DNA of 37,069 nt from NCBI GenBank assembly GCA_938074325.1, contig CALJFZ010000047.1, positions 1-37,069 of the forward strand, in the 5' to 3' direction. Position 1 is the stretch's first letter, and each line of letters starts with the position of its first letter. A program made the translations under genes and the position numbers. The notes under the pieces were generated by a model that saw nothing but the letters and a program-made list of their open reading frames with translations, did no database searches and was not told the origin of the DNA. Of this stretch, positions 1 to 6,403 are shown piece after piece. This DNA is from an uncultured Flavobacteriales bacterium (GTDB lineage Bacteria > Bacteroidota > Bacteroidia > Flavobacteriales_D > Sanyastnellaceae).

Positions 1-330
1 ACTTCCGTGATCCGCGCCATGTCCACGGTCATCACCGCAGCGGATGGCACTGGCCGCCGAGCAGAAACGCCGGGCGTGGAGGTGTGCGGAAAAACAGGAA
101 CCGTGCAAAACCCAGACGGAAACCACTCCGTTTTCATCGCTTTTGCACCCAAGGACAACCCCAAGATTGCATTGAGCGTATACGTCGAAAATGCCGGCGC
201 GGGGGGCGATTGGGCCGCTCCGATTGCCAGTTTAATGATTGACAAATACCTCAACGGGGAGCCCCGCCAATCCGAAAAAGAACAACGCATTCTGGCCGCT
301 ACCTATCCCTTCCCAGACGCAGTGCAATGA
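1..330 (+). CDS. mrdA: Penicillin-binding protein 2, C-terminal part (cut by window start)
   Basis: This is the last ~109 residues of a class B penicillin-binding protein, the transpeptidase that crosslinks peptidoglycan during cell elongation. The reading frame is open from base 1, so the N-terminus lies outside the window. The third active-site motif of the transpeptidase family, Lys-Thr-Gly-Thr (GKTGT), is visible at about bases 88-102, followed by a segment typical of the fold (SVFIAFAP, then ALSVYVEN). The stop codon overlaps the start of rodA in an ATGA, so the two are translationally coupled. PBP2 and RodA form one elongasome unit, which supports PBP2 over PBP3/FtsI. In related genomes mreC and mreD usually lie upstream; that is not visible here. 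Confidence 0.93.
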   Translation, partial: TSVIRAMSTVITAADGTGRRAETPGVEVCGKTGTVQNPDGNHSVFIAFAPKDNPKIALSVYVENAGAGGDWAAPIASLMIDKYLNGEPRQSEKEQRILAATYPFPDAVQ

Positions 331-1649
331 GAAGAACGGCCCCCATAACCCAACGAATCGACTGGCTCACTGCCACATTGGTTGCCGGCCTCATGGTAGT
401 GGGTCTGTTCAACGTTGCCAGCGCCACTGCTGGTGCAGATGCCGTTGAATGGTTCGACTTTGGGAGCAAGCTCGGAAAGCAGTTCATTTTCGTTCTGTTG
501 AGTGCCGTGCTGGCGTTGCTGCTGCTCATCATTGAAGGTGAATTCTTCATTCGGACCTCTGTCGTGCACTATGCTGTTAATGTCTTGCTATTGCTGGCAG
601 TTCTAGCCGTTGGAAGGACAATTGGCGGCGCGAAATCCTGGTTTTCCATTGGGAGCATCGGGATCCAACCATCGGAATTTGCCAAGACGGGCACCGCACT
701 TATGCTGGCCTGGCTTCTCAGCCGAAACAGCGATCGATTCAACCAGTTTAGCAGCTTGATCAAAGCCATTGCGGTGGTATCGATTCCAGCCGGTTTGGTG
801 CTGCTTCAGCCCGATGCGGGAACGGTTTTGGTTTTTGGCGGTTTGATCCTCGTCTTCTACCGCGAAGGCCTTTCAGGGAACGTCCTGATTGCAGTGTTCT
901 GTGCCCTGCTCGTCACCGTCGCGACCATTCTCAGCGGCGCCAGTTCCGTTCACTATCCCGGTCTGGGTGAGGCCACAGGCGCGTGGATTTTCTGGGGCGT
1001 ATTGGTCGGCCTCGGGGCGTTGCTTTGGTCTACGGTGCCCCAATGGACCGTGCCCAGAAGGAGGAAACGAAATCGCCGCGTCGTGCTGTTCAGTTTCATC
1101 ACGGCCCTGGCGTTATCGGCAAGCCTGCAATTTGGCTTGGAGGAAATCCTCAAACCGCATCAGCGCGACCGCATTCACGTGCTGTTTGGAATCGATGTAG
1201 GCAACCCAGATGCCGACTACAACATTCGGCACGCAAAAGCCGCCATCAGCTCCGGTGGATTTGCGGGAAAAGGATTTTTGAAAGGTCCCATGACCGCCTA
1301 TGGCTTTGTCCCTGAGCAAGAAACCGACTTCATCTTCTGCACCATCGGTGAAGAATGGGGCCTGCTTGGCACCGTCGCCACTCTGATCCTATTCACCCTT
1401 CTTTTGCTGCGCATTCTAGCTTTGGCCGAACGGCAGCGGAGCGACTTCACGCGCATTTATGCCTATGCTGTGGCAAGCATTCTTTTCATGCACTACGCCA
1501 TCAACATTGGTATGGTCTTGGGGTTGGCACCTGTAATCGGCATCCCACTCCCGTTCATCAGTGCAGGTGGTTCCTCGCTTTTGGGCTTTACCATGCTCGT
1601 TTTCATCCTGTTACGGCTGGATGCCGAGCGCTTTACGGTTTTACGTTAA
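327..1649 (+). CDS. rodA: RodA, SEDS-family peptidoglycan glycosyltransferase
   Basis: RodA polymerises lipid II into glycan strands in the inner membrane and works with the PBP2 encoded just upstream. The 440-residue product has about ten hydrophobic segments. SEDS signatures are present: GGAKSWFSIGSIGIQPSEFAK near residues 98-118, the loop YNIRHAKAAISSGG near residues 298-311, FVPEQETDFIF and GEEWG near 327-345, and a C-terminal GIPLPFISAGGSSL. A basic stretch (RRRKRNRR, near 243-250) is probably a cytoplasmic loop. The ATG overlaps the PBP2 stop as ATGA, which fixes the start. Length and motifs fit the family well; FtsW is less likely because of the PBP2 partner. Confidence 0.96.
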   Translation: MRRTAPITQRIDWLTATLVAGLMVVGLFNVASATAGADAVEWFDFGSKLGKQFIFVLLSAVLALLLLIIEGEFFIRTSVVHYAVNVLLLLAVLAVGRTIGGAKSWFSIGSIGIQPSEFAKTGTALMLAWLLSRNSDRFNQFSSLIKAIAVVSIPAGLVLLQPDAGTVLVFGGLILVFYREGLSGNVLIAVFCALLVTVATILSGASSVHYPGLGEATGAWIFWGVLVGLGALLWSTVPQWTVPRRRKRNRRVVLFSFITALALSASLQFGLEEILKPHQRDRIHVLFGIDVGNPDADYNIRHAKAAISSGGFAGKGFLKGPMTAYGFVPEQETDFIFCTIGEEWGLLGTVATLILFTLLLLRILALAERQRSDFTRIYAYAVASILFMHYAINIGMVLGLAPVIGIPLPFISAGGSSLLGFTMLVFILLRLDAERFTVLR

Positions 1650-1692: not shown

Positions 1693-1723
1693 TTGATTTA
1701 TAGCGCGATAATCCTTATCTTTG
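1693..1723 (+). promoter_or_regulatory. Bacteroidota-type promoter for the small RNA at 1729-1862
   Basis: A perfect TAnnTTTG box (TATCTTTG, 1716-1723) is preceded by TTG at 1693-1695 with a 20-base gap. This matches the published -7/-33 promoter pattern of Bacteroides-type primary sigma factors. The surrounding 1650-1730 is clearly more AT-rich than its neighbours. No protein gene starts downstream on this strand before the terminator at 1831, so the transcript should be non-coding. Transcription would start near 1729. Confidence 0.6.
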
Positions 1724-1728
1724 AGTGT

Positions 1729-1862
1729 GCTTTGTTTAGAATGATATCAGAGGCCCATTGTACACACAACCGTTGTGTCAATGGGCTTCGTCATTGCTAA
1801 AAACAAAGCGTGCAGACCATTCAAACCTAGAACCCCGCACTTCCATGTGCGGGGTTTTTATT
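1729..1862 (+). ncRNA. Candidate small structured RNA (6S-like shape, identity unknown)
   Basis: The rodA-sucB gap holds a promoter, a long imperfect hairpin and an intrinsic terminator in the order expected of an independent sRNA gene of about 130 nt. Pairings read from the sequence: GCTTTGTTT (1729-1737) with AAACAAAGC (1801-1809); AATGA (1740-1744) with TCATT (1791-1795); GAGGCCCATTG (1750-1760) with CAATGGGCTTC (1779-1789, one G-U pair); ACACAA (1764-1769) with TTGTGT (1773-1778). Interruptions are a 3-base bulge at 1761-1763, a small asymmetric internal loop at 1745-1749/1790 and bases 1796 and 1799-1800. A terminator hairpin follows. The single long rod closed near its own 5' end recalls 6S RNA, and a Bacteroidetes 6S variant has been proposed in the literature, but I cannot confirm membership. 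It lacks the GGAA-loop features of SRP RNA. No convincing ORF is present. Confidence 0.55.
1831..1862 (+). terminator. Intrinsic (Rho-independent) terminator
   Basis: A perfect 10-bp stem, AACCCCGCAC (1831-1840) with GTGCGGGGTT (1847-1856), has a 6-base loop and is followed by a T-rich run up to about 1862. The T-run lies only on the plus side, so it ends the small RNA and any rodA read-through. On the minus strand the hairpin lies downstream of sucB but has no comparable U-tract there. Confidence 0.85.
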
Positions 1863-1874
1863 TCCCGACGCTCC

Positions 1875-3128
1875 TTAAAGTCCCAGGAGGACTTCCTCTG
1901 GCGATTTGCCCGTAAACAGCAATCGCTCTGGCTGTTCGATCATTTCCTTGATCGCGTACAAGAAGCCCACGCTTTCCTTTCCATCGATGATGCGGTGATC
2001 GTAGCTCAACGCGACGTACATGACCGGACGCACTTCTACTTTTCCATTGACTGCCACCGGTCGCTCTACGATGTTGTGCATACCGAGGATGGCGCTTTGC
2101 GGAGGGTTGATGATCGGTGTAGATAGCATCGAACCGAAAACGCCTCCATTCGTAATGGTGAACGTGCCGCCTTGCATTTCGTCGATGCCCAACTCACCGT
2201 CGCGCGCGCGGATGGCCAAACGCTTGATTTCCGCTTCGATTTCAGCCAAACTCATTGTTTCCGCGTTGCGGACGACAGGTACCATCAATCCCTTTGGGGA
2301 GCTCACGGCGATGCCGATGTCAGCATATTCCGGCAGGATGACTTCCTTTCCATCGATCATGCCATTCACTGCAGGGAACTGGGAAATCGCGTGGGTCACG
2401 GCTTTGGTGAAAAAGCTCATGAATCCAAGTCCTACCCCGTGCGTTTCGCGGAATGCATCCTTGTATTTCTTGCGCAAATCCATCACCGGCTTCATGTCCA
2501 CCTCATTGAAGGTGGTAAGCATCGCCGTTTCGTTTTTCACACCGACCAATCGCTCAGCCACTTTGCGGCGGAGCATGGACATCTTTTCACGGCGCACCTC
2601 TCGTGAGCCGCCCCACTGTGCGGAGGAAGATCCGTCGAAACCAGCAGCGAGCGCGGCCAGGACATCCTGTTTCAAGACCCGGCCGTCTCGGCCTGTGCCT
2701 TTTAGCTGGGAGGCTGCCAAACCATTTTCCGCGAGCAACTTCTTGGCCGCAGGGGAAGGATGTCCGGCGGCATGGCTCGCAGCAGGTGCCGCCGCTGGTG
2801 CTGGTGCTGGAGCCGGGGAAGGCGTGGGCACCGGAGCGGGAGCTGGCGCGGCCGCAGGTTCTGCAGCGGCTTTCTTTTCTGGAGCCTTGGCCGAGGTGTC
2901 AATCAAGCAGCATACTGCCCCCACTTCAATGGTGTCCCCTTCCTCTGCTTTGAGCGTAATCACGCCCGCAGCTTCGGCAGGAAGCTCCAAGGTGGCCTTG
3001 TCGGAATCCACCTCTGCGATGGCCTGATCTTTCTCCACATAATCTCCATCTGCCACGAGCCAAGTTGCGATTTCTACTTCGCTAATGGACTCTCCCGGGC
3101 TCGGGACTTTCATTTCAAGTTGAGACAT
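1875..3128 (-). CDS. sucB: 2-oxoglutarate dehydrogenase E2, dihydrolipoyl succinyltransferase
   Basis: E2 core of the 2-oxoglutarate dehydrogenase complex of the TCA cycle; it transfers the succinyl group from lipoyl to CoA. The 417-residue protein has an N-terminal lipoyl domain with the lipoylated lysine in DSDKATLE (about residue 43), a long Ala/Pro swinging linker (about 80-120), an E1/E3-binding domain ([17 protein letters not shown], about 120-155) and a C-terminal catalytic domain ending in SYDHRIIDG, which carries the catalytic His and Asp. The ATG at 3128 ([14 protein letters not shown]) is chosen because the lipoyl domain begins there; an in-frame ATG 13 codons upstream adds unrelated residues. 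It lies 85 bases after sucA on the same strand, so the two are probably co-transcribed. Confidence 0.96.
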
Positions 3129-3213
3129 GGTGCTTGTTCTTGGTAGTGAGTGAACGTTCTCGTGCAATTAACAAAGGAAGGTAGACGGGTCAATGGCGAG
3201 GCCGAAGGATTTC

Positions 3214-5940
3214 TCAACGGTTAACATGCGAAAAAACCTCGTCGATGATGGCCTCCTGACGCTTGGCATGAACCGTGGGGCTGCCCGACGCCGGGCTGGC
3301 ACTCAAGCTGCGGGAAACCACACTCAACGGTACCGTTGTAAAGTGTTGCAGCATGTAGGACCATGCGCCCATATTTTGCGGTTCTTCCTGGACCCACATG
3401 TAGTTGGCATCCAATCCGTACTGCTTGACAATTTGGTCCAATTCCGTCTGCGGCATAGGGTGCAATTGCTCCACGCGGACGAAGGCGATGTTTGGCGCTT
3501 CCTGGTCGTCCAACCGCTCAATCAAATCGTAATAGATTTTTCCGGAACACAAGACCACCGTGTCCACCTGCTCGCGTGCTGCAGCCTTGGCCATCCGCGG
3601 ATCGTCCAAGACCTTCTGGAATCCACCCGTCGCCATGCTGGCAATCTTGGATACGGCCTTGGGGTAACGCAACAGTTTCTTTGGCGTAAACACGACCAAC
3701 GGCTTTCGATAACCGAGCTTCACTTGACGGCGCAAAAGGTGAAAGTAGTTGGCCGGCTCGGTGATATTGCACACGAAGAAATTGTCTCCACTCCCCAACT
3801 GAAGGAAGCGTTCAATGCGGCCCGAACTGTGTTCCGAACCCATGCCCTCATAGCCGTGAGGCAGCAACAAGGTCAATCCGTTCATGGTGCGCCACTTGTC
3901 TTCAGCAGCGCTCAAAAATTGGTCAAACAAGATCTGAGCACCGTTGTTGAAGTCCCCGAATTGGGCTTCCCAAATGGTCAATCCATTGGGCGTTGCGAAG
4001 GCATATCCATAGTCGAACCCGGACACTGCGTATTCGCTCAAGAGCGAATTATAGATGGTCAGTTTTGCCTGGTTTTCTTGGATCAAATTGAGCGGAATGA
4101 TTTCCTCCTCGCTGTCCTCGGTCTTCACCACTGCGTGGCGATGCGAGAACGTTCCTCGCTCTACGTCTTGGCCGCTGATGCGCACCGGATGGCCTTCGAC
4201 CAAAAGTGACGCGTAGGCCAACAACTCGCCCAACGCCCAATCCAAGCGATCTTCTTCGATCATCTTCAGGCGATCCCGCATCAAGCGCGCCACCTTCCGG
4301 TAAAATTTCTTGCCCTCCGGCAAGGTGGACATCGCCGTGGCGAGGTCCTTCAATTTCTTTGCGGCTACGGCCGTTTTCGGCGTGCTCGCCAAGGCCTTTT
4401 CGTCGGCGGGGGTGTAGGTCGACCACAATTCCCCCAAGAAATCTTCCACCCGCGCCATTTTGCGCTTCTGCGCCTTCTCGAAGGCAGCTTCCATTTGGGC
4501 TTGAAGGTCTGTGCGGACTCGTTCCACTTCCTCCGCCTTCATGCTGCCATCAGCAACCAGTCGGTCGGTGTAGAGCTTGAAGGGATTGTCGTGTTTTGCG
4601 ATGGCCTTGTACAACTGCGGCTGAGTGAACATGGGTTCGTCGCCTTCGTTGTGGCCGTATTTGCGGTAGCCAAGCAAGTCGATGTACACGTCTTGGTTCC
4701 AGCGCTGTCGGTATTCCAAAGCAATGCGCATGACTTGCACAACCGCCTCTGCCTCGTCTGCGTTGACGTGGAAGACCAACGATTGCGTCACCTTGCCCAC
4801 GTCCGTGCAGTAAATGGAGCTCCGGCCATCGAGGTAGTTGGTGGTGAAGCCCACTTGGTTGTTGACCACAATGTGCACAGTGCCTCCTGTGCGGTAGCCG
4901 TCGAGTTGGGCCATTTGGGCCACCTCATAGACGACGCCTTGCCCAGAAATAGCGGCATCCCCGTGGATCAAAATCGGCAATACGGCCGACTCATTTCCTC
5001 CGGTTGCATCGATCCGTGCACGCGAAAGGCCTTCCACTACCGGCCCGACCGCTTCAAGGTGCGAAGGATTGGGGGCCAGAGAAATGCTCACTTCTTCACC
5101 CGAATCCGCCTTCTGCGTGCGGGAATACCCAAGGTGGTACTTCACGTCTCCGTCAAACTCGCCCTCTTCGTCGTATGCCTTGCCCTCAAATTCACAGAAA
5201 ATCTCTTCGTACGGCTTGCCCAAAATGTGGGCCAATGTGGACAAGCGTCCACGGTGCGCCATGCCGATGAATACCTCCTTGACGCCGTGCTTCGTGCCTT
5301 CTTCAATGACGGCATCCAGGGCAGCAATCAAGGTCTCACCGCCCTCGAGCGAGAAGCGTTTCTGACCGACAAATTTCTTTTGCAGGAATTCCTCAAAAAG
5401 CGTGGCCTGAGCCAACTTCTTCAAAATCTGGACCCGGTCTTCAACCCCGATGCGCGGACGGTTGGCGAGCTCAATGTGCTCACGAACCCAGGCCTGGCGC
5501 TCAACGTCTTGGATGGACATAAACTCGATGCCGATGGAATGGCAGTAGGTCAATTCCAAATGGTCGACGATGTCCTTTAGTGTGGCGGGACCGATGCCCA
5601 CCTCCGTACCCGCTTGGAAAACGGTGCCGAGGTCCGCAGCGGACAGCCCGAAATTCTCCAAACTCAAATCCGGACGGTACACACGGCGCGTACGCACGGG
5701 ATTCGTTTTTGTGAAGAAATGCCCCCGCACGCGGTAGGCATGAATCAAGTTGATGACCTGAAATTCCTTGAGCGTTTGCGGGGAGGCTTGATCCTCGCCG
5801 TAGGACGCTGTGGCCAAATCAAACCCCTTAAAAAAAAGCCGCCAACTCGCGTCAACGGATTCGGGATTCGAACGGTACTGCTGATACAAGGATTCAATCG
5901 CTTGCGGCTCAGCTTGGCTGATAAAGTCTAAAGGGTCCAT
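3214..5940 (-). CDS. sucA: 2-oxoglutarate dehydrogenase E1 component
   Basis: The thiamine-diphosphate-dependent E1 subunit decarboxylates 2-oxoglutarate and passes the succinyl group to the lipoyl arm of SucB. The 908-residue protein has the usual family length. Visible features are the N-terminal E1o segment (MDPLDFISQAEPQAIESLYQQY), the ThDP region HGDAAISGQGVVYEV, the GHNEGDEP segment, and the C-terminal transketolase-like part (MLPHGYEGMGSEHSSGRIER-like stretch, then RVEQLHPMP). The ATG at 5940 is chosen because conserved sequence starts there and a TAnnTTTG box lies 25 bases upstream. The open frame continues 64 codons further upstream but that part is arginine-rich and unlike E1. Confidence 0.97.
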   Translation of the reverse strand: MDPLDFISQAEPQAIESLYQQYRSNPESVDASWRLFFKGFDLATASYGEDQASPQTLKEFQVINLIHAYRVRGHFFTKTNPVRTRRVYRPDLSLENFGLSAADLGTVFQAGTEVGIGPATLKDIVDHLELTYCHSIGIEFMSIQDVERQAWVREHIELANRPRIGVEDRVQILKKLAQATLFEEFLQKKFVGQKRFSLEGGETLIAALDAVIEEGTKHGVKEVFIGMAHRGRLSTLAHILGKPYEEIFCEFEGKAYDEEGEFDGDVKYHLGYSRTQKADSGEEVSISLAPNPSHLEAVGPVVEGLSRARIDATGGNESAVLPILIHGDAAISGQGVVYEVAQMAQLDGYRTGGTVHIVVNNQVGFTTNYLDGRSSIYCTDVGKVTQSLVFHVNADEAEAVVQVMRIALEYRQRWNQDVYIDLLGYRKYGHNEGDEPMFTQPQLYKAIAKHDNPFKLYTDRLVADGSMKAEEVERVRTDLQAQMEAAFEKAQKRKMARVEDFLGELWSTYTPADEKALASTPKTAVAAKKLKDLATAMSTLPEGKKFYRKVARLMRDRLKMIEEDRLDWALGELLAYASLLVEGHPVRISGQDVERGTFSHRHAVVKTEDSEEEIIPLNLIQENQAKLTIYNSLLSEYAVSGFDYGYAFATPNGLTIWEAQFGDFNNGAQILFDQFLSAAEDKWRTMNGLTLLLPHGYEGMGSEHSSGRIERFLQLGSGDNFFVCNITEPANYFHLLRRQVKLGYRKPLVVFTPKKLLRYPKAVSKIASMATGGFQKVLDDPRMAKAAAREQVDTVVLCSGKIYYDLIERLDDQEAPNIAFVRVEQLHPMPQTELDQIVKQYGLDANYMWVQEEPQNMGAWSYMLQHFTTVPLSVVSRSLSASPASGSPTVHAKRQEAIIDEVFSHVNR

Positions 5941-5965
5941 GCGGACTATACGTGGGTTCGATGAA

Positions 5966-5973
5966 CAAAGATA
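5966..5973 (-). promoter_or_regulatory. Promoter -7 box for sucAB
   Basis: TATCTTTG on the minus strand, a perfect TAnnTTTG match, lies 25 bases before the sucA ATG. No good -33 TTG is seen at the usual spacing. It suggests that sucAB can be transcribed independently of the rfbA/polyprenyl synthase genes upstream. Confidence 0.55.
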
Positions 5974-6025
5974 CACCCGGTGCATCAGATGGGGAAGGAA
6001 TCCTTGGCCAACCTCACTCGGTGAT

Positions 6026-6403
6026 TCAAAACGTGGTGTCCACCGCGCCAAAGGTCCAGCGCAGCCACACTTTCTGCGCAGCCCGTTCCAACGAAAGTTC
6101 AGCCAAGAGCCTCGCCGCTTGCGGGCGCTCATTCCAATCCATCACCTCCCGAATCTTGGCCTCCCCAAGGTCGAGGCGGTAAAAACCCGCGAACAAGCCG
6201 GAGGCATCTCGGTCCAATCCCCAATTGATCTCGTCTTCAAGCAATTGCACCAACGAAATGCGCACCTCAGCGACCCGCTCAGGGTTCCACTGAAAGTCTT
6301 TGACCACCTGCGCCGTCACGGCTTCACGGAAATCCTCCGCTGTTCGGCCTGCAGGGAGTTCCCGCGTTTTGAGCCATTCGATAAGGCTTGCTGAAGCCTC
6401 CAC
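6026..6403 (-). CDS. Small protein of unknown function
   Basis: A 125-residue acidic, helix-rich soluble protein that I do not recognise. It starts with GTG at 6403 (no ATG is available near the 5' end), only two bases after the stop of the polyprenyl synthase gene, so it is very likely co-transcribed and translationally linked. No signal peptide or membrane segment is visible. It has several tryptophans (for example EWLK, FQWNPERV, EINWGLD, VMDWNERP, KVWLRWTF). It ends 85 bases before sucA. Tight packing and ordinary codon use argue that it is real; the function is open. Confidence 0.7.
   Translation of the reverse strand: MEASASLIEWLKTRELPAGRTAEDFREAVTAQVVKDFQWNPERVAEVRISLVQLLEDEINWGLDRDASGLFAGFYRLDLGEAKIREVMDWNERPQAARLLAELSLERAAQKVWLRWTFGAVDTTF

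Follow-up and report, generated by a model that had tools for sequence, protein, structure and literature searches.

A candidate small RNA gene between rodA and sucB in one genus of Flavobacteriales

Within the stretch of DNA analysed here (37,069 nucleotides from an uncultured Flavobacteriales bacterium, hereafter the window), the gap between the convergent genes rodA and sucB in all likelihood contains a genuine small RNA (sRNA) gene, kin to copies in close relatives, judging from sequence comparison. Of 20 rodA-sucB gaps retrieved for the genus, 19 contain the RNA, the window's own counted, and across these 19 gaps the -7 box, the CCCAUUG helix, the TGY/GCA closing bases and the ends of a linker occupy the same positions. 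Its own promoter, a conserved non-coding body and an intrinsic terminator are the features by which an intergenic sRNA is recognized at the sequence level, and the new RNA is very probably ordinary in kind, that is, an intergenic regulatory sRNA and, on present evidence, not a 6S RNA. The fuller reading, under which a genus-restricted, independently transcribed regulatory RNA possibly pairs with mRNAs through its linker, appears to us evenly poised between right and wrong.

Few of the small RNAs of uncultured Bacteroidota have been mapped, and the phylum uses promoter signals of its own; a compact candidate sRNA that combines a seed-like linker with a conserved duplex and matches no Rfam model at its cut-off is a defined object for checks against metatranscriptomes. 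Its distribution also suggests the pace at which sRNA genes are gained and lost: most of the genus has it, one species carries a decayed copy, and the searches of sister genera did not find it.

Anatomy of the locus in the window

The features of the locus are collected in Table 1. According to an excerpt of PMC9723704, the -7 box of Flavobacterium, TAnnTTTG, lies at -12 to -5; given this spacing, transcription is predicted to start near 1728, where the closing stem of the hairpin begins. A preliminary description of the gap had proposed a promoter in which a TTG is followed after 20 nt by the -7 box; both elements are present, and the spacer between them is 19 nt.

Table 1. Features of the rodA-sucB locus, numbered from the first nucleotide of the window
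Feature	Positions	Strand	Remarks
rodA (FTSW_RODA_SPOVE)	327..1649	+	upstream neighbour; Pfam PF01098, E 3.4e-75
Predicted promoter	1694..1723	+	TTG at 1694-1696 (about -33) and -7 box TATCTTTG at 1716-1723
Predicted sRNA	1728..1861	+	about 134 nt; start (+/- 2 nt) predicted from promoter spacing, end from terminator
Rod hairpin	1728..1813	+	MFE fold; lower stem 1729-1737 (GCTTTGTTT) with 1801-1809 (AAACAAAGC), perfectly complementary, and upper helices
P3, CCCAUUG/CAAUGGG helix with variable apical hairpin	1754..1785	+	
A/C-rich linker GACCATTCAAACC, predicted unpaired, candidate seed	1814..1826	+	13 nt
Intrinsic terminator	1831..1859	+	perfect 10-bp stem, AACCCCGCAC (1831-1840) with GTGCGGGGTT (1847-1856), and T-run to 1859
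sucB (2-oxoacid dehydrogenase E2)	1875..3167	-	convergent neighbour; Pfam PF00198, PF00364, PF02817
sucA	3214-6132	-	follows sucB; E1 domains

The remaining parts of an sRNA gene that had been described for this gap, a rod whose two ends pair and a perfect 10-bp terminator with a U-tract, can all be read in the sequence. Beyond the lower stem, the rod is extended by pairs between 1725-1728 and 1810-1813 (one G-C and three G-U, in line with the weak, mostly G-U pairing reported earlier), and the two blocks previously noted in the terminal helix were both found, namely GAGGCCCATTG (1750-1760) with CAATGGGCTTC (1779-1789), including one G-U pair, and ACACAA (1764-1769) with TTGTGT (1773-1778). 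The only loop with at least three unpaired bases in the predicted fold is a 4-nt bulge, and there is no central bubble. The predicted end of the sRNA is 13 nt from the sucB stop codon. Positions 1720-1865 fold at -65.7 kcal/mol, compared with -32.5 +/- 4.3 for 200 dinucleotide shuffles, none of which was as stable (z -7.8); when the terminator is left out, the hairpin still has a z of -6.9, with 0 of 200 shuffles as stable.

When read on the minus strand, positions 1814-1859 present first the terminator hairpin and then the complement of the linker, which is rich in T, so this element could also end the sucB transcript and serve both strands. An apparent antisense promoter (TAGGTTTG, minus strand of the a-type copies defined below) was dropped as the other types, by eye, do not retain it.

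Conservation within the genus and support for the fold

An orthologue of sucB (at least 89% identity) was identified in 20 of the 22 genomes of the genus, the other two (G003 and G021) having only paralogues with 36% identity. Copies of the RNA were extracted from the gaps by two anchors, CCCATTG and TANNTTTR; the gap of one genome (L121, from G006) has neither and was left out of the later counts. When the window's own genome and 59 relatives were searched at the DNA level, six other genomes of the genus had clear matches (E 1.5e-5 or better), and G010 and G005 had partial ones; some match at E up to 1 was obtained in 40 of these 60 genomes, and we take those beyond the clear and partial matches in the genus as chance.

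The 19 copies fall into three types by their lower stems: a (nine copies, including the window's), b (four) and c (six). The -7 box reads TANNTTTR in all 19, this motif having been an extraction anchor as well, and has TTTG in 16; a TTG at about -33 was seen by eye in seven of the nine a-type copies and is not clear in types b and c. In all 19 copies, the rod ends with a GCA that is aligned with a 5' TG. The CCCATTG strand is identical in all 19 aligned copies, again as an extraction anchor, and its partner strand in P3 is nearly unchanged. The GCA that precedes the linker and its terminal AACC are invariant, and in 16 of the 19 copies the linker has a mean unpaired probability of 0.94 or more (55-59% in L125, L128 and L129). 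Every copy ends with a terminator-like hairpin and a T-run, the stem sequences of which differ. The identity of the RNA only slightly exceeds that of the 60 nt upstream both within clades (0.79 vs 0.69) and between them (0.62 vs 0.56), the upstream stretch being no clean control given its overlap with the rodA coding sequence.

The copy missing from L121 looks like a decayed remnant, with the RNA lost in this one species. L121 aligns to four of the nine copies tested with scores of 53-65, in each case above all 200 shuffles of itself; against the remaining five, the scores are within the shuffle maximum, and under the covariance model it reaches at most 5 bits. This gap has lost the -7 box and the CCCATTG strand and retains a terminator-like end.

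The stability of the hairpin is a common property of most copies: when measured without the terminator, 16 of the 19 hairpins were equalled in stability by no more than 2 of 200 shuffles (L115, one of the 16, was measured on a shortened hairpin), the ones that do not clearly beat their shuffles being L125 (17 of 200), L128 (50 of 200) and L129 (9 of 200). The consensus fold of the seven a1-type copies comprises the whole rod, and 5 of its 45 pairs changed on both sides somewhere, with a covariation term near zero. When all 19 copies are folded together, P3 is recovered, the terminator appears with one of the two alignments, and the lower stem is missing; the lower stems of different types do not align column by column.

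We also compared the arms directly, an assessment that ignores relatedness and whose result comes from types a and b. Arms with their own partners scored -13.7 on average, compared with -10.4 +/- 0.6 when the arms were re-dealt among copies, and 0 of 10,000 re-dealings were as good. For the b-type 5' arms, the score is -12.8 with b partners, compared with -5.2 to -6.2 with others; the b-type 3' arms pair equally with a1-type 5' arms (-12.7) and with their own (-12.8). For type c, the arms score -8.8 with their own partner vs -9.6 to -10.2 with other clades. Support for the rod thus comes from types a and b, with type c adding weak support.

Alignment of the relatives, which the preliminary description had called for, bore out the conservation of the gene parts and yielded no compensatory changes in P1 and P3: none of their 11 pairs was altered on both sides, which is no better than shuffled columns. 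In P3, 96.7% of the cells are paired and there are no double changes. Their absence from P1 and P3 follows from the fact that both helices hardly vary. Our confidence that this is a real RNA gene, high as it is, is tempered by the all-copy fold that lacks the lower stem and by the fit of b-type 3' arms to a1-type 5' arms.

Taxonomic range and relation to known families

A covariance model (R1) built from the 19 copies finds one copy per genome in 19 of the 22 genomes of the genus at E 1.6e-11 or better, these being the very copies from which the model was made; the additional matches in the genus are antisense to the same locus (G002, G008) or at chance level (G004). Among 128 genomes outside the genus, 16 had R1 matches (E 0.027-0.5), and the -7 box, linker and terminator did not occur together at any of the 10 such loci inspected by eye; one of these (L172) has a 16-nt linker-like string alone and another (L173) has TATATTTA alone. 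The matches outside the inspected set are L174, G096, G099, G112, G119 and G222. No R1 match below E 0.9 was obtained from 38 sources, 33 of which are sucB loci, with L031, the contig of G006 judging by its length, among them. The pattern of TTTG plus P3, searched in 114 genomes of the family, was found in 14 genomes of the genus and, in other genera, at 11 sites spread over 10 genomes. Where rodA and sucB are neighbours in another lineage (L059), they are about 30 nt apart, too close for the RNA to fit between them. As far as these searches reach, the RNA appears to be restricted to one genus of Flavobacteriales.

The Rfam scan of the window revealed no family at gathering score. When 13 of the 18 other RNA-bearing loci were compared with Rfam, three weak matches (E 0.16-0.9) were obtained, one of them to the rnk leader, at L122, overlapping the end of sucB and the terminator. 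The best sub-threshold match at the window locus is the leucine operon leader (RF00512; 28.9 bits over 1720-1860, cut-off 50), which resembles the RNA in its layout of a hairpin plus terminator; this identity was rejected given that the downstream gene is the convergent sucB, that there are no leucine genes and that no leader peptide or other frame is common to all copies. The remaining weak Rfam matches at the locus are under their cut-offs and out of context. Among the literature matches listed, no paper was recognised as describing this RNA. The preliminary description of an independent, unassigned structured sRNA is thus supported, the promoter box, hairpin, linker and terminator recurring throughout the 19 gaps.

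A coding gene was also considered and rejected: from the two longest frames of each copy, no reading frame common to all 19 emerged. The four b-type copies have a common frame of 14 codons, and L128 and L129 have one of 30 codons.

Possible modes of action

The RNA would be transcribed by the primary sigma factor from the sigma-A-type -7 box. The rod of about 86 nt, with its ends pairing at the predicted start site, may protect the 5' end and present the linker (of the GCAAAAC..AACC type), which could then act as a seed that pairs with target mRNAs in trans, in the manner of GibS. We favour base-pairing in trans, tentatively and at somewhat less than even weight, because of the anatomy of the RNA and the GibS precedent. 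In the excerpt of PMC7366714 that describes it, GibS of Bacteroides thetaiotaomicron is, like the present RNA, intergenic and conserved in its genus, with its own promoter and an intrinsic terminator; it is about 145 nt long, compared with about 134 nt here, and its unpaired conserved part, the counterpart of our candidate seed, serves as the seed that pairs with start-codon regions. According to the same excerpt, GibS has little structure and carries its seed at the 5' end, whereas the RNA described here is a strong rod with its unpaired part just before the terminator, and the likeness is one of description. A closer taxonomic parallel comes from an excerpt of PMC9723704, where the Rfp sRNAs of Flavobacterium psychrophilum are independent Flavobacteriales transcripts, of which some are structured and show conservation between species; the genome that encodes them has TAnnTTTG promoters. 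This is a different organism, and the likeness is again by description.

A search for sites antisense to the linker in 7 of the 22 genus genomes yielded 27 non-self matches compared with 19 for the control; the excess comes from G015 alone (13 vs 4), and without this genome the counts are 14 vs 15. Nine sites, none of them from G015, were inspected, and two proved to be common to two genomes each. One lies close to where an open frame of 521 codons ends (its 3' end) in G001 and G013. The other, a near-complement of the a-type linker, is located about 27 codons after the likely ATG of a frame in G004 and G013 (L194 and L204, position 1501) that we take, from its reading, to be methylglyoxal synthase. 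Neither site was found in the other genomes searched at three mismatches, and for this reason we do not call them targets.

The main rival explanation is that the P3 duplex and the adjoining U-rich strand bind an RNA-binding protein, which would be sequestered or guided by the RNA. Between clades with different lower stems, P3 is conserved in sequence as well as in pairing, and at least four U follow P3 in 14 of the 19 copies, by eye. Protein contact may explain the strict sequence conservation of P3 better than pairing in trans; the copy in the window, however, lacks the U-run and reads GGGCUUCG, and on the whole we consider a protein-binding role rather unlikely.

The preliminary description had offered two options, a new sRNA family or a 6S-type regulator that mimics an open promoter and binds the sigma-A RNA polymerase. 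The rod shape, the single copy per genome and the genus-wide presence are compatible with the latter, and 6S-Flavo (RF01685) is likewise a rod-like RNA of Bacteroidetes of similar size. Nevertheless, 6S-Flavo is absent from the window at its cut-off and from the window's own genome at E 0.001, and it does not exceed its cut-off in any of the 22 genus genomes, the single match being at chance level (E 1.3, G018). The general 6S model (RF00013) is also below its cut-off in all 22, with chance-level matches in G002 (E 3.45 and 7.36). As a control, 6S-Flavo exceeded its cut-off in none of 14 genomes and matched four at a lax threshold, such that its absence elsewhere in a genome is a weak test; RF00013, at an E limit of 10, matched 8 of the 14, four of them over the cut-off. 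That neither model found a 6S RNA elsewhere in the genus is a weak point in favour of this reading, given that across the order 6S-Flavo matched at E 0.001 in only 2 of 199 genomes, both below its cut-off, so that absence here says little on 6S elsewhere in the genus. The bubbles of 6S RNAs are larger than 7+7 nt, which is the largest internal loop among the 19 MFE folds (L120), and the window copy, unlike 6S, has no central bubble; moreover, the rod is followed by an unpaired 13-nt linker and a terminator. Membership in 6S was accordingly rejected after these searches and the loop measurement, a 6S-type function is improbable, and a new sRNA family is the better of the two options.

The same low probability applies to a termination element, in which transcription of rodA and/or sucB would stop at P3 and at the final hairpin, the linker being, when read from the sucB side, the T-rich tail of a bidirectional terminator. 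The two genes are convergent, the linker is T-rich on the minus strand, and in 14 of the 19 copies P3 and the U-run behind it (1754-1791 in the numbering of the window) look, by eye, like an internal terminator; such an element leaves unexplained the fixed -7 box (19 of 19), the closing bases and the invariant bases far from the final hairpin.

The resemblance of P3 and the U-run to an internal terminator also allows an sRNA of two lengths, a form of about 65 nt that ends there and the 134-nt form made by read-through. The linker AAACC would pair with a GGUUU that follows P3 in some copies (by eye) and reopen the conserved helix, and the balance of short and long forms would be the regulated signal. 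Given that the window copy has lost the U-run, such a switch would vary within the genus. We regard the two-length reading as quite improbable. Least probable is a cis-antisense regulator of the 3' end of the sucB/sucA mRNA, formed where the convergent transcripts overlap: a sucB transcript reading through the short distance to the sRNA would be perfectly complementary to it, but this overlap is itself hypothetical, and conservation of structure is not expected from antisense pairing alone.

Outside the genus, the 6S-Flavo model gave two sub-threshold matches in two genomes of one other genus, at L145 (1398-1518, minus strand, 46.4 bits) and L146 (1501-1623, plus strand, 41.4 bits; cut-off 85). 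Both sites adjoin a pair of reading frames resembling an ABC-transporter ATPase and permease, and they may be divergent 6S RNAs to which the Rfam model assigns too low a score.
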